Assembly (NCBI GenBank): GCA_025056865.1
Contig: JANWVO010000003.1
Span: 1-64,000, forward strand
Source: Bryobacteraceae bacterium
Lineage (GTDB): Bacteria > Acidobacteriota > Terriglobia > Bryobacterales > Bryobacteraceae
Reading direction: 5' to 3'
DNA length: 64,000 bases
The position numbers were made by a program, and so were the translations under genes. Each line of letters opens with the position of its first letter. The stretch's first letter is position 1. The notes beneath the pieces were generated by a model. The model was not told the origin of the DNA. It saw nothing but the letters and a program-made list of their open reading frames with translations, and made no database searches. This document shows positions 3,642 through 16,681 of this stretch, piece after piece.

Positions 3642-5228
3642 GTGGAAGACGGAAGACAGTCCCCCAGTCTGGGAACTTCGGCCACCTCGTTGGAAGCGGA
3701 GAGAGCCGAATTGCAGGCAGTGCTCTCCTCGGACATCTTCCACCGCGCCCCCACGCTGGCCCAATTGCTGGCATACATCTGCGAGAGATACTTCCGGGGC
3801 GAGATCGAGCTGATCAAGGAATACAGCATCGCCGTCGAGGCGCTCGGCCGGCCTGCCGGGTTCGATCAGAAAAGGGATTCGATCGTGCGGGTGGAGGCGC
3901 ACCGGCTGCGGAAGAGGCTGCGCGAGTACTACGAAACCGAAGGGAAGGATCACGCCATCCGCATCGAACTCCCGCCCGGAGGCTACGTCCCCCGGTTCGT
4001 GCAGCAGCGGCGGGACGTCGACCCGTCGGGTGGAAAAGGAATCGAGGCGGCGGGTTCCCCTGCTGATGGATCCGCCACCCGAAAGCGGCTGTCGGCGCGG
4101 ACCGGCAGGCCGGTCTGGTGGCTGGCGGCGGCGGGATCCATCGTGGCCGTGGCGGCGTTGGCCGGATGGCTCCTGCTCCGGGTGGAGAGGCCTGCGGCGG
4201 GACCGGCCCCGACCAGCCCGGCAGCAGTCCAGGCCGACGATCTGACGTCGGCGGCGAGGGTGGGAGAGATCCGCATCGCCGCGGGCAGCGCGGTGCCGGT
4301 GCGGGACAAGGATGGCGAGATCTGGCTCTCTGACCGCTACTTTCAGGGTGGGGAGGCGAAGTCCAGGCCTGACCTCGAAGTCGCGGGAACACTCACACCA
4401 GAGCTTTTCCGCAGTTGGCGGGAGGGCGAGTTCAGCTACCGGATTCCGCTCAAGCCGGGCGTCTATGAGCTGACGCTCTGGTTCTGCGAACCCCGGTTTC
4501 CAGCCGGCGGCGGCAATTCGGGGAGCTTCCGGATCCTGCTCGATGGCAGGCCGCTGGTTGAGGAGATTGACATCATCGCCGATGTCGGGGCAGGGCAGGC
4601 GGTGACGGCGCGCACGTTCCGCGACATCCGGCCGGGCGCGGACGGGGTGCTGCATCTGGAGTTCCGGCCGATCTCCAGCTCTGCGTTGCTGGCCGCGTTG
4701 TCCGTCGTCCCTGGGACCTCCGGGCGTCTGCGGCCCATCCGGATCGCCGCCCGCGAGGAACCCTACAAGGACAGCGAAGGACACGTCTGGTCGTCGGATC
4801 GTTTCTTCTTTGGCGGGCGGCTGGTAAAGCGCATCGAGCCAATCCAGGGCACGGAAGATCCCGAGCTGTACCGGGGCGAGCGCTACGGGCGGCTGACCTA
4901 CACCATCCCGGTACCGCCGGATTCCACCTACACGGCGGTCCTGCACTTCGCCGAGACCTGGTTCGGAAGCCGCCTCGGAGGCGGCGGCGAAGGGAGCCGC
5001 CTTTTTGACATTCTCTGCAACGGACTGCTGCTGGAACGGAACCTGGACGTCTACAAAGCGGCAGGCGGACCCTTCCGCGCCATGCGGAAAACATACCGGG
5101 GGCTGAAGCCAACGCCCAACGGCAAGCTGGTCTTCCAGCTCATCCCCAGCCGGAACTACGCGTTCCTCAACGCCCTGGAAATTCTGGATGAAGGGCGCGC
5201 CCCGGCGGCAACGCCCAGGGAGAAATAG
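3642..5228 (+). CDS. Winged-helix / transmembrane / double-malectin protein (possible one-component carbohydrate sensor)
   Basis: The 528-residue product has three parts. Residues about 20-120 match the winged-helix-like domain common in Acidobacteriota and Planctomycetota proteins, with the hallmark DSIVRVEAHRLRKRLREYY at 79-97 followed by ELPPGGYVPRF. One membrane segment lies at about 158-180 (VWWLAAAGSIVAVAALAGWL). Two malectin-type folds follow at about 208-358 and 365-517, each starting IRIAA and containing W(L/S)SDR(Y/F)F. The layout recalls ToxR/CadC: cytoplasmic DNA-binding domain, membrane anchor, outer ligand domain. Malectin folds bind glycans, so carbohydrate sensing is inferred. 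The start is GTG with no clear Shine-Dalgarno sequence and sits beside a promoter-like pair, so leaderless translation is possible. Possible target: the divergent TonB receptor. Confidence 0.75.
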   Translation: MEDGRQSPSLGTSATSLEAERAELQAVLSSDIFHRAPTLAQLLAYICERYFRGEIELIKEYSIAVEALGRPAGFDQKRDSIVRVEAHRLRKRLREYYETEGKDHAIRIELPPGGYVPRFVQQRRDVDPSGGKGIEAAGSPADGSATRKRLSARTGRPVWWLAAAGSIVAVAALAGWLLLRVERPAAGPAPTSPAAVQADDLTSAARVGEIRIAAGSAVPVRDKDGEIWLSDRYFQGGEAKSRPDLEVAGTLTPELFRSWREGEFSYRIPLKPGVYELTLWFCEPRFPAGGGNSGSFRILLDGRPLVEEIDIIADVGAGQAVTARTFRDIRPGADGVLHLEFRPISSSALLAALSVVPGTSGRLRPIRIAAREEPYKDSEGHVWSSDRFFFGGRLVKRIEPIQGTEDPELYRGERYGRLTYTIPVPPDSTYTAVLHFAETWFGSRLGGGGEGSRLFDILCNGLLLERNLDVYKAAGGPFRAMRKTYRGLKPTPNGKLVFQLIPSRNYAFLNALEILDEGRAPAATPREK

Positions 5229-5299: not shown

Positions 5300-6775
5300 A
5301 TGAGAACGCTTTTTCTGAACCCGCCCTCGTTTGAGGGCTTCGATGGCGGGGCCAGCTCCCGCTGGCCGGCGACGCGCGAGATCGAGTCCTACTGGTATCC
5401 GGTGTGGCTGTGCTACCCCGCCGGGATGCTGCCGGACTCGAAGGTGGTGGACGCGCCGCCGCACCGGATTTCGATCGAAGACACGGTCCGGATGGCGAAG
5501 GACTTCGAGCTGCTGGTGCTGTTCACGTCGACGCCGGGCTTCGACGTGGACGTGCGCATGGCGGCGATGATGAAGGACGCCAACCCGAAGCTCAAGGTCT
5601 GCTTCGTGGGGCCGCCCGTGACGGTAGAACCGGAGAAGGCGCTGGCGCACACGGCCATCGACTTTGTCATCCGCCGCGAGTTCGACTACCAGATTGTCGA
5701 TTACGCCAACGGCAAGCCGCTGGAAGAAATCCCCGGCGCGAGCTTCCGCAAGAACGGCGGCATCGTGCACAACCCCGAGGCGCCGTACATCGAAAATCTC
5801 GACGCCCTGCCTTGGGTGACGAAGGTTTACAAGCGGGATCTCGACTTCCGCCGCTACAACGTTCCCTTCCTGCTGCATCCGTTCATCGCTCTCTACACGT
5901 CCCGCGGGTGCCCGGCCATGTGCACGTTCTGCCTCTGGCCGCAGACGCATTCGGGCCACCGCTGGCGGCTGCGCTCGGTGGATGACGTCGTGGCGGAAGT
6001 CGCCTGGGCAAAGGAAAACTTCCCCGGGCTGAAAGAGATCTTCTTCGACGACGACACCTTCAACTACAAGGGCGCGCGCACCATCGAGCTGTGCCGGAAG
6101 CTGGCGCCGCTGGGCATCACCTGGTCCTGCACCAGCCGCGTGACCACAGACTACGACACGCTGGCGGCGATGAAAGACGCCGGCTGCCGCCTGCTGATCG
6201 TGGGCTACGAGTCCGGCGACCCGCAGGTCCTGAAGAACATCAAGAAGGGCGCGACCGTCGAGATGGCGCGCCGCTTCACGAAGAACGCGCACAAGCTGGG
6301 CCTGACGATCCACGCCGACTACATCATCGGCCTGCCCGGCGAGACGCGCGAGTCGATCCGCCGCACGATCGAGTTCGCGAAAGAACTCGACACGGAGACG
6401 ATCCAGGTTTCCATCGCCCACCCTTACCCCGGCACGGAGTTCTACGATTACGCGCAAAAGAACGGGCTGATCCAGATCGGCGTGTCGATGACCGACGAGC
6501 AGGGCCACCAGCTTCCCAACATCGTGTACCCGGGGCTGGACCGCGCCGAGCTGGTCGATTGGGTGCAGCGGTTCTACGACGAGTACTACTACCGGCCGAA
6601 GGCTGCCTTCCGCGTCGTCGCCAAGGCGGTGCTGAACGGCGACGTGAAGCGCCTTTACAAGGAGGCTCGCGAGTACCTGAGCCTGCGCGCCAAGCGCCGG
6701 CAGTTCGTCGCCGAGCAGAAGAGCCGCCCGGCGGAAGAGCCGGTGCGGGAAGCCGCTACCGCCAGCGGAGACTGA
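5300..6775 (+). CDS. hpnJ: Hopanoid biosynthesis radical SAM protein HpnJ
   Basis: The 491-residue protein has the HpnJ-type start (TLFLNPPSFEGFDGG), a B12-binding-like N-terminal half, and a radical SAM centre C204-x3-C208-x2-C211 (RGCPAMCTFCLWPQT). HpnJ acts after HpnI (GlcNAc transfer) and HpnK (deacetylation) on bacteriohopanetetrol, rearranging the glucosaminyl group to the cyclitol ether head group. The next three genes run in the same direction within a few bases or with overlap, ending in hpnI, which supports the assignment. A GAGG about ten bases before the ATG is a plausible ribosome binding site. The C-terminus after about 470 is a charged low-complexity tail. No hpnK is seen in the window. 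Confidence 0.92.
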   Translation: MRTLFLNPPSFEGFDGGASSRWPATREIESYWYPVWLCYPAGMLPDSKVVDAPPHRISIEDTVRMAKDFELLVLFTSTPGFDVDVRMAAMMKDANPKLKVCFVGPPVTVEPEKALAHTAIDFVIRREFDYQIVDYANGKPLEEIPGASFRKNGGIVHNPEAPYIENLDALPWVTKVYKRDLDFRRYNVPFLLHPFIALYTSRGCPAMCTFCLWPQTHSGHRWRLRSVDDVVAEVAWAKENFPGLKEIFFDDDTFNYKGARTIELCRKLAPLGITWSCTSRVTTDYDTLAAMKDAGCRLLIVGYESGDPQVLKNIKKGATVEMARRFTKNAHKLGLTIHADYIIGLPGETRESIRRTIEFAKELDTETIQVSIAHPYPGTEFYDYAQKNGLIQIGVSMTDEQGHQLPNIVYPGLDRAELVDWVQRFYDEYYYRPKAAFRVVAKAVLNGDVKRLYKEAREYLSLRAKRRQFVAEQKSRPAEEPVREAATASGD

Positions 6776-6782
6776 CGCGGCC

Positions 6783-7190
6783 ATGAAAGCGCGGGCGTTG
6801 TGGCACACGGCGGGCGTCGTGCTGCTGAACGCTGCCGGCAACTACGCGCTTTCTCTGGGGATGAAGCGGGCCCCTGCCGCGGCAGGCCCGGCGCTGGCGT
6901 TGCTGGAGCCCGCCGCCATCGCCGGAATCGCGCTGCTGATTGCGTGGATGCTGCTGCGGCTGAGGCTGTTGCAGATGGCGGATCTCACCTTCGTGCTGCC
7001 GCTGACGGCGGTGGGATACCTGTTGAACGCGGCCATGGGCGCCGTGCTGCTGGGCGAGCACGTCACGCTGGCCCGCTGGGCGGGCGCGCTGTTCATCAGC
7101 GGCGGAGCTGCCCTCACTTCGTTCACGCCCCACGAGACGGACGCAGGCGGGGCGGAGCCGGAAGGAGCCGCAGAGCGGCGGGAGGGATAG
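6783..7190 (+). CDS. EamA/DMT-type half transporter (first of a pair)
   Basis: The 135-residue protein has four predicted membrane helices, the size of one EamA repeat or an SMR subunit, plus a hydrophilic tail after about residue 115. It starts 7 bases after hpnJ and is followed two bases later by a second four-helix protein. Full DMT transporters carry ten helices and SMR proteins work as dimers, so this and its neighbour probably form a heterodimer. The nearest functional parallel is ArnE/ArnF, a pair of small DMT proteins that flips a lipid-linked amino sugar. Given hpnJ and hpnI on either side, flipping of a hopanoid or its sugar-bearing form is inferred. Substrate is unproven. Confidence 0.75.
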   Translation: MKARALWHTAGVVLLNAAGNYALSLGMKRAPAAAGPALALLEPAAIAGIALLIAWMLLRLRLLQMADLTFVLPLTAVGYLLNAAMGAVLLGEHVTLARWAGALFISGGAALTSFTPHETDAGGAEPEGAAERREG

Positions 7191-7192
7191 CC

Positions 7193-7507
7193 GTGCTGAT
7201 GCAGTGGCTGCTGGTGTCCGTGATCGTGGCCTGCACTGCCTGTGCCGACCTGCTTCAGGCCCACGGGATGCGGAACGGCGGCGCGCGATGGAAGGTGCCG
7301 CTGTCGATCGTGTTTCTCGCGCTGTCTTTCTTCTCCTTCACGCAACTGCTGCGGATCGCGGACCTGTCCTTCGCGGTGCCGGCCACGGCGGCGAGTCTCG
7401 TCGTGGAGACCGCCCTGGCGCGGCCGGTGCTGAAGGAACGGGTCGGCTGGAGACGCTGGGGGGGCGCGGCGCTGGCGGCGGTCGGCGTGGCGCTGCTGGC
7501 GCATTGA
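7193..7507 (+). CDS. EamA/DMT-type half transporter (second of a pair)
   Basis: The 104-residue protein has four hydrophobic segments and the EamA-like end KERVGWRRWGGAALAAVGV. The GTG at 7193 is preferred over the in-frame ATG at 7199 because GGAGG at 7181-7185 lies 7 bases before it. That places the gene two bases after the preceding half transporter. Its stop overlaps the TTG start of hpnI by four bases (TTGA), so the four genes are probably translationally coupled. See the preceding entry for the ArnE/ArnF comparison. Confidence 0.75.
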   Translation: MLMQWLLVSVIVACTACADLLQAHGMRNGGARWKVPLSIVFLALSFFSFTQLLRIADLSFAVPATAASLVVETALARPVLKERVGWRRWGGAALAAVGVALLAH

Positions 7508-11535: not shown

Positions 11536-13308
11536 TCAGTCGATGACGATGCCGCGGTCTTCCAGCAGCGTGCCCAGCCGCTGCTGGAGGATCAGCAGGT
11601 TGCGGCGGTAGTTGACGGTCTGGTTGACGAGGTTCGACTGCGCCGTCGCCAGGTCGTTCTGCGCCGACAGCAGGAAGAAGATGTTGATCACGCCGAGGTC
11701 GTAGCGCTTCTGGTCTGCCTCGACGCGCTTCTGGGCGTAATCGACGGCGATCTGCGCCAGCCGCACGCCTTCGCGGCTGCTCTCCACGTTCGTGATGGCA
11801 TTCAGCACTTCCTGCCGGATCTGCTGCTCGAGCGAACGCTCGCGGAGCGCCGCCAGGCGCTTGTTGACAACGGCATCGGCGAGGTTGGCCGCTCCGGCGC
11901 GGTCCCGCAAAGGCAACTGGAGCTGGAAGCCGAACGAATACGTGTTGTAGTTGAAGCCGAACATCATGCTCCAGGCGTCCCATGCGGTGCCGGGAATAAA
12001 GATGGGGGTGCCGCCGACGCGCTGGAAGCCCGGACCGCCGCGCCCGAACGTCTGATAGGAACCGGTGAGGTTGAAGACGGGCTTGATGGAGTTGAGCGCG
12101 TTCTGGATCTGGAGGTCGTTGATATCGAGCGCCAGCTTCTGCGCCTTGATGTCCGGGCGGTTCTCAAGCGCAAGCTGCACGAGCTTCTCGCGGTCGTAGG
12201 TCACAGGCTCGGGCATCTTGCTGACGTCCTCGGTGAGCACGATCGGAAGGTCGCGCACATCAGGGTCGAGGTCGGCGCCGATCTGGCGGCGCAGCGCGTC
12301 CTCGAAGGCGCGCAACTGGTACTCGGTGCGGGTGACGTTGATCCGCGCGGTAGCGGCGTTCTGTTCGGGCTGGAAACGCTCGAGCTCGCTGGTGGCGCCC
12401 AGCTCGATCTCGCGGTTGGTGCGTTCCAGCGCGGCTTCGGCCAGCTTCAACGCCTCGAGATTGACCTTGAGGTTTTCGCGCGCGCTGACCACGTCCCAAT
12501 AGGCCTGCTCGGCGGTGACGAGCAGGCGCATGATCGCATCGCGGACGTTGAAGTCCTGCTGGCGCCTGGTGGCGCGGGCGATGGTGATGCCGATCTTGGT
12601 GATGTAAGGCCCGCGGCCGCGCCACAGCGGCTGGGTGAAGCCCATCTGCCACGTGGTCGTGTAGGCGGGGTTGTAGAGCGCGAACTGGTCATTGGTGGAG
12701 AGCTTGGACCAGTTGAGCTGCGTGAAGACGGTGGTGGAGGTCGGCAACAGTTGCTGGAAGCGCGTGTTCAGCGGCTGGTTGAGCTGGCTGACCACCTGGG
12801 CGCCCTGGAGCTGGTTGATGGCCGGCTGGCTGGAGCGCGTGGCGTTGAAGTTCGAGGTGATGGTGGGGTCGAAGATCGAGAACGCGCGCTGGATGGCGTT
12901 CTTGGGCACCTCGATCGAAAGCCGCTGGATGGCGATGTCGGTGTTGTTGGCAAGAACCAGGTCCAGGTAGTTCTTCAACGAGAGCACCAGCTTGCCGTCG
13001 ACGACGAAATCCTTCAGCCGCACCGGGGGCTGGATGGTGACGCGCGTGTCGCCGGGCGAGAAGACGCGGCGCATCCATGCTGGAGAGCCTACCCACGGAG
13101 CGGAGGCATCGTGAACGGCGAAATTCATCCTTGCCTCCGCGCCCGCGCCCACCGGAGGCTGGGCCGTCGTGGAGGGCACAGGCTGCTGCTGCGGAGCCGG
13201 AGTGCCGGGTTGCACGGGCGCCGGCTGCGCCGGTGCCGCAGGAGTGACGGGAGCCTGCTGCGCAGGCACAACGAGAGCAGAGACAAGAAAGACAACAAGA
13301 CTGCGCAT
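11536..13308 (-). CDS. TolC-type outer-membrane efflux channel
   Basis: About 590 residues: a signal peptide (MRSLVVFLVSALVVPA), a Pro/Ala/Gln-rich stretch, then two repeats of the outer-membrane efflux fold with long amphipathic helices (for example REIELGATSELERFQPEQN). TolC-family trimers form the exit duct of tripartite pumps. It is the last gene of the operon that holds three adaptors and a MacB-type permease and is followed by a terminator. The ATG at 13308 is chosen because it starts a clean signal peptide; an ATG at 13341 would overlap the permease gene and bury it. Confidence 0.9.
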   Translation of the reverse strand: MRSLVVFLVSALVVPAQQAPVTPAAPAQPAPVQPGTPAPQQQPVPSTTAQPPVGAGAEARMNFAVHDASAPWVGSPAWMRRVFSPGDTRVTIQPPVRLKDFVVDGKLVLSLKNYLDLVLANNTDIAIQRLSIEVPKNAIQRAFSIFDPTITSNFNATRSSQPAINQLQGAQVVSQLNQPLNTRFQQLLPTSTTVFTQLNWSKLSTNDQFALYNPAYTTTWQMGFTQPLWRGRGPYITKIGITIARATRRQQDFNVRDAIMRLLVTAEQAYWDVVSARENLKVNLEALKLAEAALERTNREIELGATSELERFQPEQNAATARINVTRTEYQLRAFEDALRRQIGADLDPDVRDLPIVLTEDVSKMPEPVTYDREKLVQLALENRPDIKAQKLALDINDLQIQNALNSIKPVFNLTGSYQTFGRGGPGFQRVGGTPIFIPGTAWDAWSMMFGFNYNTYSFGFQLQLPLRDRAGAANLADAVVNKRLAALRERSLEQQIRQEVLNAITNVESSREGVRLAQIAVDYAQKRVEADQKRYDLGVINIFFLLSAQNDLATAQSNLVNQTVNYRRNLLILQQRLGTLLEDRGIVID

Positions 13309-13333
13309 GGGTTTGGCCTGATGAATCGGGTGA

Positions 13334-14593
13334 CTACTCATAACGGATGGCTTCGATCGGATCGAGTTTGGCTGCCTGCACGGCGGGGTAAATGCCAAAC
13401 AGCAATCCAATGCCGACGCTGACGCCGAACGCCACGGCGATGGACGTGAACGTGACCACCGTGGACCAGCCGGCGGCGGCGGCAATGATCTGGGCCAGAG
13501 TGACTCCGAAGAGGATGCCGAGGAGACCTCCGATCATGGAGATCATGACGGCTTCGGTGAGGAACTGGCGGACGATGTCCGACTGGCGGGCGCCGATGGC
13601 GCGGCGGATGCCGATCTCGCGCGTGCGCTCGAGCACCGTGGCCAGCATGATGTTCATGATGCCGATGCCGCCCACCAGAAGGCTGATGCCGGCGATGCAG
13701 ATCATGACCACCTTGAAGATGTCGCTGGTGCGCTTCTTCTGCTCGAGCAGCCCGGCGGGCACGGTGACGCTGTAGTCGCCCGCGTCCTTGTGGGTGGCGG
13801 CGAGGATGGCGTTGATGACGGCCGCCGTTTCGATGGAGTCCACGCCGGGCTTGACGCGGAGATAGATGCCGTCGATTTCGTCCTTGAGGAAGCTGTTCTG
13901 ATCCTCGAAGCGGAACATGACCGTGCGCAGCGGGCTGACCACGAGGTTGTTGCGGGAGAGAATCTCGACGCCTTCGACGTCGGTGTCGCCGCCGGCCTGC
14001 TGCGCCATGACGCCGATGACCTGAAGCCAGACGTCATTGATCTTGATGTACTTGCCGACCGCCGGCTCATAGCCGAGCAGGTTGACCTTCGCCGTCTCCC
14101 CCAGCACGCAGACCGGCGCTGCGGTGGCGTTCTCCTCTTCGGTGAAGAAGCGGCCTTCCACAAGCCGGATGCTCTGGATGTCCATGTAGGACGGCTCGAC
14201 GCCGATCAGCATCGGCAGCTCGGCCGAGGTCTTCGGCAGGACCTTCGTCGGCTTGAAGCGCTTGCGGGGCGTCGCCTTGTCGATGCCCTGCGTGTTTTCC
14301 AGGATGGCCCGGTAATCGCGGAAGGTCATGCCCGGGCTGATGGCGCGGCGCGCCTGAAGCTCGGTGCGGTCAGTGGCTTCCTTGGCCTCGATGATGATGT
14401 TGTTCACGCCGAGCAGGTCGATGTAGGAGAGCATCTCCTTTTCGACGCCGGCGGTGATGGCAAGCATCGCCACCACGGCTCCGACGCCGAAGATCATGCC
14501 GAGCATGGTCAGCAGCGTGCGGAGCTTGTGCACGAGGAGGCTCGAAAGCCCCATGTAAATTTCAGGCAGATAGGCTTCGAGGAGGGCTACCAT
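13334..14593 (-). CDS. MacB/FtsX-type ABC transporter permease
   Basis: The 419-residue protein has the MacB layout: a helix near the N-terminus (LRTLLTMLGMIFGVGAVVAM), a large extracytoplasmic core domain at about 50-290, and three C-terminal helices with the FtsX signature ERTREIGIRRAIGA. Such permeases drive export by mechanotransmission and need a cytoplasmic ATPase. None is fused here and none lies in the operon. The ATG is three bases after the stop of the preceding adaptor, so expression should be coupled. Substrate is unknown. Confidence 0.9.
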   Translation of the reverse strand: MVALLEAYLPEIYMGLSSLLVHKLRTLLTMLGMIFGVGAVVAMLAITAGVEKEMLSYIDLLGVNNIIIEAKEATDRTELQARRAISPGMTFRDYRAILENTQGIDKATPRKRFKPTKVLPKTSAELPMLIGVEPSYMDIQSIRLVEGRFFTEEENATAAPVCVLGETAKVNLLGYEPAVGKYIKINDVWLQVIGVMAQQAGGDTDVEGVEILSRNNLVVSPLRTVMFRFEDQNSFLKDEIDGIYLRVKPGVDSIETAAVINAILAATHKDAGDYSVTVPAGLLEQKKRTSDIFKVVMICIAGISLLVGGIGIMNIMLATVLERTREIGIRRAIGARQSDIVRQFLTEAVMISMIGGLLGILFGVTLAQIIAAAAGWSTVVTFTSIAVAFGVSVGIGLLFGIYPAVQAAKLDPIEAIRYE

Positions 14594-14596
14594 GGC

Positions 14597-16681
14597 TTAC
14601 TGTCCCCCTTTCGTGCCCATCGGCATGACAGCGGCGGCGCCGCCCTGCTTTTTCTGCTGCTCCTTCTTCTTCCGCTCTTCGGGGGAGATGGTCGGATCCT
14701 GGAGCGCGATCACCTCGCCTTCCTTCAGTCCGGAGGCGATGATGGAGACCGTCTCCGAGCGCTTGGCGATCTGGATGTGGCGCGGCTCGAAACGGTCCTG
14801 CACCTTCACGTAGACGACGGGCTTGCCGTCCTTCTCGAAGATGCTCTGGTTGGGCACGTAAATGGCGTTGGGCACTTTTTCAACGATGATTTCCACATCG
14901 GCCAGCAGGCCGGGCCGCAGCAGGATTTCCATGTTGTCGCTGGCTTCCGGCGGCGGGGGCAGCTTGGCCTCGTCGAGATCCTTCTGCGTGAACTGGCCGA
15001 TGGAGGACGGCATGCCGCCGAAACCATTGCGGCCTCCGGGCCCGCCGGGTCCGCCCTGCGGGCCGGCCTGGGCCATGGCGGGGCCGCCCGCCTGCTGGCC
15101 CGGGCCGCCGCCCGGTGCTCCGCCGGGCTGGCCGGGCGCACCGCCCTGGCCGGGCGCGCCGCCGGGGCGCTGGCCGCGCTGCGGCAGTTCGATGCCTGCC
15201 TTCTTCGCTTCCTCGCGGAGCTTCTCAAACACCGCGCGGCGGTCTTCAGGCGACAGCTCCATCAGGTTCTTTCCGCCGAGAGCCTTCTGAAAGATCTCCT
15301 GCATCTTTTTCTGCTGCTCGGGCGTGAGCTGCGCGCCGCCGAACATCATGCCGCCGCCCATGCCGCCCATGCCGCCTGCGCCGCCCATCATCATGAAGGC
15401 GCGGCGCTGGCCCTGGCCGTCGCCGGACTGTCCCATCGCGCCGGGCATGCCGCCTCCCATTCCCGGCATCTGCCCTGCGCCGCCCTGCCCGAAGGCAATG
15501 GCGGCTCCGCCGCCCATGCCGCCTGCGCCGGGCATTCCGCCGGCGGCAGCCGCCATGGCGCTGAAGTCCGGCATGCCGCCGAACATCGACAGCGTCGGCG
15601 TCGCAATCGGCTTCTTCCGGTTGGCTTCCGCGGTGGCGAGGATGCGCGCGATCTGCTCCGGCTTCGCCCCAAGCTCGGTGAGCAGCTCCTTCATGTCGAT
15701 GGAGAACAGCACGTCGAACTTCTTGCCGGGATCCGCGCTGAAGACGTTGGCGCTGGCCGTGCCGCTCATCGACTTGATCTTGCCGTGGAAGACCTTGCCG
15801 GCGAGCGCGTCGAGCCGGATGAGCACATCCTGGCCTTCATGCAGGTTGGCGCGGTCAAGCTCGCCGATGCGGGCGATGACCTCGAGTTCGGACAGGTCGA
15901 GGATCTCCGCCACCGGCATGCCAGGCTGCACCTGGTCGCCTTCGCGGATGTCGGGAATCTGCGTGCCGAACATGCCGGAGAAGCCGGAGCGGTTCTGCTT
16001 GATGGCGACGAGGCCGCTGATGGGGGCCAGCAGCTTCACCTGCATCAGGCGCTGCTTTTCGCGGTTGATGTCGAGCAGGTTGCGGTTGCGGCGCTCGCGC
16101 AGCACGTTCAGCTCGGCCAGCGCCTGCTCCTGCTTGGACTTGATGTCGCTTTCCAGTTGCCGCAGCCGCCGCTGGGCCTCTTCGAGATTCAGCAGGTTCT
16201 TCTTCTGATCGATGGCAGGCAGCAGCGGGTTCTTCTTCACTTCGAGTTCGGCGCGGCGCACGGAATAGCGCGCGCGCAGCAGATCGACCTGATCCTGGTT
16301 GTTGCGGATGGCGAGGTCGGCCTGCGCCTTCTTGATCTGCTCATCGACCTGCTCCAGCTCAAGCTGGCGCTGCTCGAGCCGCGAGAGGACTTCCGAGTCG
16401 TCGAACTCGACAATCAGGTCCTTCTCGCGCGCGAAGGACCCCATCGGCGCGAGCTTGGTCACCTGCACCGTGCCGAACAGGTTCGGCGCCGTGAGCGTGG
16501 CCGAGCGGACGGCGCGAAGCTCGCCGCGGGCGAAGCTGCGCACGACGACGTCGCCGCGGCGCACGCGCGTGGTGGGCACGGTCTGCTGCCGCGACGGCAG
16601 GCCCTGGATCAGGCGGTAGATGCCGTAGCCGGCGCCGAGCACCGCCACTACCAACAGGAGTCTGGTAACAACCTTCTTCAT
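14597..16681 (-). CDS. HlyD/MFP periplasmic adaptor with a large Met/Gly-rich insertion
   Basis: The 694-residue protein has an N-terminal membrane anchor (about 5-25), a split lipoyl/barrel-sandwich domain around a coiled coil (about 95-215), and a beta-barrel. It is roughly 250 residues longer than usual. The extra part at about 331-585 interrupts the barrel region. It has a Met/Gly tract with 16 Met between 366 and 446, a short helical piece starting LTPEQQKKMQEIF (452-464), and a Gly/Pro/Gln tract at about 501-560. The adaptor fold resumes near 585 (EILLRPGLLADVEI). Adaptors link the inner-membrane permease to TolC. The Met-rich segment could bind soft metals or serve as a flexible spacer; neither is shown. 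Confidence 0.85.
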   Translation of the reverse strand: MKKVVTRLLLVVAVLGAGYGIYRLIQGLPSRQQTVPTTRVRRGDVVVRSFARGELRAVRSATLTAPNLFGTVQVTKLAPMGSFAREKDLIVEFDDSEVLSRLEQRQLELEQVDEQIKKAQADLAIRNNQDQVDLLRARYSVRRAELEVKKNPLLPAIDQKKNLLNLEEAQRRLRQLESDIKSKQEQALAELNVLRERRNRNLLDINREKQRLMQVKLLAPISGLVAIKQNRSGFSGMFGTQIPDIREGDQVQPGMPVAEILDLSELEVIARIGELDRANLHEGQDVLIRLDALAGKVFHGKIKSMSGTASANVFSADPGKKFDVLFSIDMKELLTELGAKPEQIARILATAEANRKKPIATPTLSMFGGMPDFSAMAAAAGGMPGAGGMGGGAAIAFGQGGAGQMPGMGGGMPGAMGQSGDGQGQRRAFMMMGGAGGMGGMGGGMMFGGAQLTPEQQKKMQEIFQKALGGKNLMELSPEDRRAVFEKLREEAKKAGIELPQRGQRPGGAPGQGGAPGQPGGAPGGGPGQQAGGPAMAQAGPQGGPGGPGGRNGFGGMPSSIGQFTQKDLDEAKLPPPPEASDNMEILLRPGLLADVEIIVEKVPNAIYVPNQSIFEKDGKPVVYVKVQDRFEPRHIQIAKRSETVSIIASGLKEGEVIALQDPTISPEERKKKEQQKKQGGAAAVMPMGTKGGQ

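Follow-up and report, generated by a model that had tools for sequence, protein, structure and literature searches.

RESULTS AND DISCUSSION

Two small membrane-protein genes lie between hpnJ and hpnI

The window, by which we mean the whole 64,000-nucleotide stretch that was analyzed, derives from a Bryobacteraceae bacterium and contains four genes on one strand in the order hpnJ-A-B-hpnI, with gaps of 7 nt and 2 nt followed by a 4-nt overlap:

5300–6775, + strand: hpnJ; TIGR03471 at 758.7 bits (cut-off 577.6), with Radical_SAM and B12-binding domains (Pfam)
6783–7190, + strand: A subunit, EamA/ArnE-like half-transporter; 135 aa, ATG start, four helices
7193–7507, + strand: B subunit, EamA/ArnE-like half-transporter; 104 aa, GTG start, four helices
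7504–8634, + strand: hpnI; 376 aa, TTG start; TIGR03472 at 302.6 bits, slightly below the curated cut-off of 310; Glyco_transf_21 at 142.7 bits

Both hpn genes belong to the tailoring of hopanoids, which are sterol-like lipids of bacteria. We take the hpnJ product to be a B12-binding radical SAM enzyme responsible for the cyclitol-ether step, and the hpnI product to be a GT21-type glycosyltransferase of the BHT N-acetylglucosamine transferase family. The initial annotation had placed two four-helix EamA/DMT halves of these sizes and spacings between the two genes, and our analysis confirmed this arrangement. An alternative start for B, the ATG at 7199, would give a protein of 102 aa. The GC3 of both genes is high (0.87 for A and 0.89 for B), as it is in hpnJ and hpnI. 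Against the Pfam EamA family (PF00892), B scores 32.5 bits, above the cut-off of 28.2, and A scores 24.5 bits, below it. AF2 models built from the window A and B sequences alone have four helices each, at low confidence (mean pLDDT 56). Since A and B belong to two families that are conserved 3′ of hpnJ in 54 of 60 loci (see below), we consider them to be genes, and not chance open reading frames.

The surroundings of the four genes deserve a brief description. A 528-aa malectin-domain protein is encoded immediately 5′ of hpnJ (3642–5228, + strand) and is perhaps co-transcribed with it. Genes for a TolC-type protein (OEP), a MacB-type permease and an HlyD-type adaptor lie ~3 kb past hpnI (11536–16681, − strand); the TolC family (F3) is present in 41, and the HlyD family (F4) in 35, of 60 related loci, and the region 5′ of hpnJ in loci of class f2 often encodes a TolC-type protein together with an HlyD adaptor and a TPR protein (named in L045). 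These genes may be candidates for an onward export route for hopanoids. In the gene layout of relatives, a Zn-dependent alcohol dehydrogenase accompanies hpnC-D-E, which by itself suggests an acidobacterial origin for the window. In seven of 60 loci, a conserved protein of ~240 aa (family F25; for example L067:10462–11184, + strand) is encoded divergently from hpnJ; at E ≤ 1e-5, neither Pfam nor NCBIfam gives a match for the L067 member. Elsewhere in the window genome (G000) there is a second HpnI-family gene (G000:C32:40080–41198) which, at 318 bits, exceeds the cut-off and scores better than the window copy. HpnK is represented in this genome by a sub-cut-off match only (183 bits, at C50), in line with the report that, in acidobacterial subdivisions 1 and 3, hpnI and hpnJ are present and hpnK is absent (PMC5462960).

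The A/B pair recurs 3′ of hpnJ

At E ≤ 1e-120, 62 of the 396 genomes sampled from the window's phylum encode HpnJ, in 60 of them above the cut-off. We sampled the loci of 60 of the 61 other HpnJ genomes, up to ~9 kb on each side and less at contig ends; G208, on a short contig, is outside this set. An A+B pair lies 3′ of hpnJ, on the same strand and within 9 kb, in 54 of the 60 loci. The A stop is at most 0.7 kb from the hpnJ stop in 36 of them, hpnK intervenes in eight, and in ten the pair is more distant, with other genes intervening. The gene orders seen are hpnJ-A-B-hpnI, hpnJ-hpnK-A-B-hpnI and hpnJ-A-B; in class-f2 genomes the pair stays with hpnJ, and hpnI is at another site.

Three of the six genomes with pairless loci carry the pair elsewhere. 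The genome behind L055, a short contig, has it at the end of another contig (G195, C53), and that behind L039 (G267) has it directly after hpnK on a different contig (L188). In G291, whose hpnJ locus (L092) is pairless, the order hpnK-A-(B::HpnI) occurs on a different contig (L187). The remaining three (G029, G278, and G192) form an HpnJ clade of their own, with support of 100/100.

The L187 gene (L187:10092–11714) is an in-frame fusion of the B half to HpnI, 540 aa long, that directly follows hpnK and A; its GTG start at L187:10092 overlaps the A stop. We rejected a reading of this locus as an A-B-HpnI fusion, as A has a frame of its own and HpnI is joined to B alone. Since it is present in a single genome, the B::HpnI fusion could be an assembly or sequencing error. 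Fused pairs were also rejected at L190, where A and B are in separate frames, and at L191, where they are two separate ORFs.

To express the association genome by genome, we defined a strong half as a protein scoring at least 69 bits with the B profile, and searched all 396 genomes. A strong half is present in 58 of the 62 HpnJ genomes versus 12 of the 334 without HpnJ (Fisher p = 2e-52 with relatedness ignored; the genomes are related, and the counts are not independent). Weaker B-profile matches occur in another 44 genomes, mostly of family f24 (~53 bits), and the one f24 member that was placed in our tree falls outside the clade of the halves considered here. The initial annotation had set a location mostly away from hpn genes against its own hopanoid proposal, and we found the opposite.

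Single halves predominate in a second phylum

We also scanned the contigs of other genomes with the HpnJ alignment. Among the best 80 loci, almost all of which are proteobacterial by name, the A and B profiles found no pair; a single 323-aa ORF matches the A profile weakly, at 19.8 bits. In the phylum of a Nitrospira sp. MAG (L169, genome G418), referred to below as the second phylum, 45 of 198 genomes encode HpnJ, in 32 of them above the cut-off, and 20 loci from 18 genomes were sampled. In 14 of these 20 loci the middle of a half lies within 4 kb of the middle of hpnJ: one is a true pair (L221, in the order hpnI-hpnK-hpnJ-A-B) and the other 13 have a single half, which in L229, L233, and L234 is on the opposite strand. 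HpnL takes the place of the half in L227, and neither a half nor HpnL was found near hpnJ in L220, L228, L231, L238, and L239, the last two of which have a sub-cut-off HpnJ. Genome-wide, a half of at least 79 bits is present in 27 of 31 over-cut-off HpnJ genomes of this phylum (of 32; G517 was excluded). The A and B proteins of L221 group in the tree with those of the same two genomes (L068 and L089), so the pair seems to travel together.

HpnL-like proteins alternate with the halves

In the clade without a pair, an HpnL-like protein adjoins hpnI/hpnJ in G029 and G278 (L034 and L035) and lies at a contig end in G192. The HpnL-like proteins of L034 and L035 match PF03706, the lysylphosphatidylglycerol-synthase transmembrane region, which we take to be the flippase domain of MprF. 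HpnL itself (TIGR03476) is an hpn-cluster membrane protein whose function is described as not established (PMC12583986). At E ≤ 1e-10, a threshold at which the HpnL search also matches one control genome, HpnL-like proteins were found in seven of 55 tested genomes of the window's phylum, none of the 55 exceeding the curated cut-off of 195.65 bits; the window genome has no HpnL at E ≤ 1e-10 anywhere. The HpnJ of L034 is up to 73% identical (best segment) to proteobacterial HpnJ and 50% identical to the window HpnJ, and this closeness suggests that the no-pair cassette was probably exchanged as a unit.

Among the best 80 HpnJ loci, phmmer with two single HpnL queries found HpnL at 22, and an iterated HpnL profile found it near hpnJ at 28; these local counts are underestimates, as many contigs are cut. 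We searched 30 HpnJ genomes from this set, mostly with loci that lack HpnL nearby, with TIGR03476, and found HpnL in 29, with 28 over the cut-off. The one miss, the Rokubacteria MAG G421, carries a half scoring 85.9 bits, and six others of the 30 have weak half matches only (31–47 bits). In the second phylum, HpnL was found in three of 31 genomes, namely G418 (over the cut-off), G599 (beside hpnJ), and G620, the latter two below the cut-off. Both half-bearing phyla hold both solutions, and all but one of their HpnL-like hits are below the curated cut-off.

Across the 106 HpnJ genomes that were tested for both proteins, 67 have a half only, 33 have an HpnL-like protein only, three have both and three have neither (Fisher p = 1.5e-20 at E ≤ 1e-10 for HpnL, with relatedness ignored). 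Where both are present (G265, G291, and G620), the HpnL-like protein is on a different contig from hpnJ; the genomes in which neither was found are G208, G471, and G456. When HpnL is counted over the cut-off only, it is present in 28 of 36 half-less genomes versus none of 70 half-bearing ones. HpnL and the half thus have the same genomic role in HpnJ genomes, in near-mutual exclusion, but they are unrelated: HpnL is an LPG_synthase_TM protein of ~320 aa, whereas A and B match EamA and not PF03706. On balance, we lean towards the view that there are two unrelated solutions to hopanoid flipping, an MprF-type HpnL and an ArnE-type small DMT protein, which are swapped together with the hpnIJK cassette.

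Halves without HpnJ, and pairs in other settings

Eight of the 12 strong-half genomes without HpnJ (G037, G274, G203, G196, G306, G330, G235, and G066) have HpnH and HpnK over the cut-off, and HpnI is over the cut-off in all five of the eight that were searched for it. A single half abuts hpnK in G037, G274, G196, G306, G330, and G066 and adjoins hpnI in G235, so that seven of the eight have it next to one or other gene; in G203 the half and hpnI/hpnK are on different contigs. The occurrence of halves with HpnI and HpnK but without HpnJ argues for recognition of an HpnI-derived sugar, rather than solely of what HpnJ makes.

The other four (G215, G169, and G201 of family f19, and G074) have an A/B pair without HpnH, HpnI or HpnJ, which implies that the family is not exclusively hopanoid. 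Such pairs lend weight to an alternative in which the pair flips another glycolipid or a polyprenyl-phosphate sugar, its place among hpn genes being due to a shared sugar pathway rather than to hopanoid as its substrate. So do the second pairs that accompany the hopanoid pair in four genomes (G257, G370, G233, and G329): those of G370 (L185) and G233 (L186) are ~3–6 kb from HpnI-like glycosyltransferases, with a UDP-sulfoquinovose-synthase-like gene (503 bits; cut-off 575) in the neighborhood of L185 and PMT and epimerase genes in that of L186. The second pair of G257 (L184) adjoins a universal stress protein. The alternative is difficult to reconcile with the fact that, in two phyla, the strong half tracks HpnJ (or, in genomes that lack HpnJ, HpnH/HpnK) and alternates with HpnL-like proteins, and with the fusion of B to HpnI in one genome, and we regard it as unlikely.

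Two further sets of single halves have neighbors that are in keeping with that same alternative. The 85.9-bit half of the Rokubacteria MAG (L202:1492–1842, − strand), which may lie apart from the hpn locus, directly precedes an ORF judged by eye to be PMT/ArnT-like. Single EamA halves in L196, L197, L199, and L200 adjoin DegT/ArnB-like aminotransferases, suggestive of other amino-sugar lipids; the L196 and L197 halves are weaker relatives outside the main clade, and in L200 (G274) the order is HpnI-HpnK-half-DegT aminotransferase.

ArnE ranks first of six E. coli references by profile score

Profiles built from 55 A and 55 B proteins were scored against six E. coli proteins and, per profile, ~1390 shuffled sequences. 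E. coli ArnE ranked first of the six with both profiles, at 27.0 bits (A) and 34.1 bits (B), and the other five reached at most 16.7 bits (A) and 11.6 bits (B), with shuffle maxima of 8.9 and 11.7. With the A profile, MdtJ scored 16.7 bits and EmrE 9.7 bits. ArnF, at 3.7 (A) and 1.0 bits (B), did no better than shuffles, and hhalign did not separate ArnE (92–93%) from the EmrE/MdtI/MdtJ set (93–94%), so it is the HMM scores that place A and B near ArnE. Neither protein reaches the NCBIfam equivalogs: B scores 16 bits against a cut-off of 92 for ArnE and 13.5 against 99 for ArnF, and A matches neither.

In a tree of 93 rows and few columns, 80 halves are set apart from ArnE and the SMR proteins (99/99), in a clade that takes in the non-hopanoid pairs of f19/f44 and L202. 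In the same tree B forms one clade (96/86), and A is not resolved as a single clade. Matches in the PDB are weak (CMP-sialic acid transporter, SLC35B1, and NIPA2). The halves share PF00892 homology with the 10-helix EamA/DMT transporters, such as YddG and the SLC35 proteins, but are half their size and encoded by two genes; with the A and B profiles, moreover, the YddG halves stay at the level of shuffled sequences, and we rejected a 10-helix DMT transporter.

A and B resemble ArnE/ArnF, the flippase for undecaprenyl-phosphate-Ara4N in the lipid subtype of SMR proteins, in being an adjacent pair of small halves (111 and 128 aa in E. coli) encoded in an operon for an amino-sugar head group, in their four helices and ~100-aa size (from models of low confidence), in their EamA-type sequence (ArnE scores 40.9 bits) and in the absence of the central SMR glutamate. 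They differ in lying in an hpn and not an arn operon, with no ArnT-type gene in the window cluster, in falling below the ArnE equivalog cut-off with ArnF unscored by either profile, in forming a clade that excludes ArnE (in the tree with few columns), and in their presumed substrate, which would be a hopanoid in finished form instead of an Und-P sugar donor.

Small paired four-helix proteins could also be ordinary exporters of small molecules, such as SMR drug, polyamine or guanidinium exporters, in an accidental location; some SMR pairs pump drugs or polyamines (PMC9574504), and the hhalign values for the EmrE/MdtI/MdtJ set are compatible with this. However, PF00893 (SMR) is not reached by A (11.9 bits against 23.7) and not matched by B, none of 55 A and none of 54 B proteins has a Glu where the central SMR residue aligns, and the location is kept in 54 of 60 loci. 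We therefore rejected a drug-efflux SMR, and consider small-molecule efflux in general to be very improbable. E. coli ArnE itself reaches 25.6 bits with PF00893, and ArnF matches neither PF00893 nor EamA. At the central position, Asn is present in nine of 55 A proteins, including that of the window, and in one of 54 B proteins, the residue being mostly Ala in the others. Replacement of the central Glu by Asn is a mark of the lipid-subtype SMR proteins, with a possible lack of proton coupling (PMC9574504), and by analogy the A/B pair may not be proton coupled. In transmembrane helix 1 of A, the residue after an invariant G is D (44/55) or N (11/55), and the matching place in B is D (35/55) or E (20/55); an acidic residue here may bind the head group, glucosamine or cyclitol, by its amine.

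Mean charge bias is −8.4 for B and −0.2 for A, with A above B in all 47 scored pairs and opposite signs in 13 of the 47; eight proteins could not be scored, and the loop limits are crude and in part misplaced. The window pair scores +3 and −5, with the same crude loop limits. The bias is compatible with a B that is fixed and an A that complements it, and agrees in part with the pair rule of the SMR family.

A proposed flippase for glycosylated hopanoids

Enzymes that use UDP-sugars or SAM are presumed to be cytoplasmic, and this location is presumed for HpnI and HpnJ, which use these substrates. HpnI adds GlcNAc, HpnK removes the acetyl group and HpnJ forms the cyclitol ether (PMC12583986). 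In our model, HpnI (with HpnK, where present) and HpnJ would equip bacteriohopanetetrol with its sugar or cyclitol head group on the cytoplasmic side of the inner membrane, in which A and B would form an antiparallel ArnE-type heterodimer. The dimer would hold the head group between its helices while the hopane body stays in the bilayer, and would bring the finished or sugar-bearing lipid over to the periplasmic leaflet; its onward passage toward the outer membrane would fall to an export system. HpnL, of the unrelated MprF-flippase-domain family, would take over this flipping task in the proteobacterial HpnJ genomes and in some others. HpnN resembles the pair in serving hopanoid trafficking toward the outer membrane (PMC12583986) but is an RND transporter, presumably acting at a later step.

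The flipping of glycosylated hopanoid suggested in the initial annotation thus gains support from comparative genomics, through the linkage to hpn genes and the alternation with HpnL. We conclude that A and B probably constitute an ArnE-type heterodimer that flips HpnI-derived glyco-hopanoid and is interchangeable with HpnL. This reading draws on gene order, conservation, co-occurrence with hpn genes, alternation with HpnL, one fusion and the rank of ArnE among six references. The second, better HpnI at C32 and the sub-cut-off HpnK of the window genome argue against a firm call of the substrate.

The same proteins might instead be accessory subunits of HpnI, HpnK or HpnJ that transport nothing and act as an anchor, substrate presenter or assembly factor, as the B::HpnI fusion of one genome, the tight operon spacing and the occurrence of the pair with differing subsets of hpnI, hpnK and hpnJ could indicate. 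We find this decidedly unlikely, given that hpnI is unlinked from the pair in f2 genomes, that the partner in the alternation, HpnL, is a PF03706 protein, and that ArnE/ArnF are reported to be glycolipid flippases (PMC9574504).

An ArnE-type small flippase is an already known kind of transporter, and what would be new, should A and B flip hopanoids, is its substrate class and distribution. In the open-licence literature that was searched, we found no assignment of a hopanoid role to an EamA/ArnE-type pair, and the text available from PMC12583986 names no protein for the inner-membrane crossing of hopanoids. For a Leptospirillum hopanoid cluster, an EamA-like transporter is among the listed domains, with no role given in the text available (PMC12654047). 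Within that literature, the hopanoid setting, the alternation with HpnL, and the occurrence of the ArnE-type small DMT protein as a single half, as a pair or fused to HpnI all appear to be new.

Composite hopanoids are presumably made at the cytoplasmic face, yet traffic of hopanoids to the outer membrane is described (PMC12583986). The alternation of HpnL-like proteins with ArnE-type halves offers two candidate flippases for one step, the crossing of the inner membrane. If our reading is correct, it would give both HpnL and the A/B pair a function, and hopanoids would join the substrates of the small DMT flippases.
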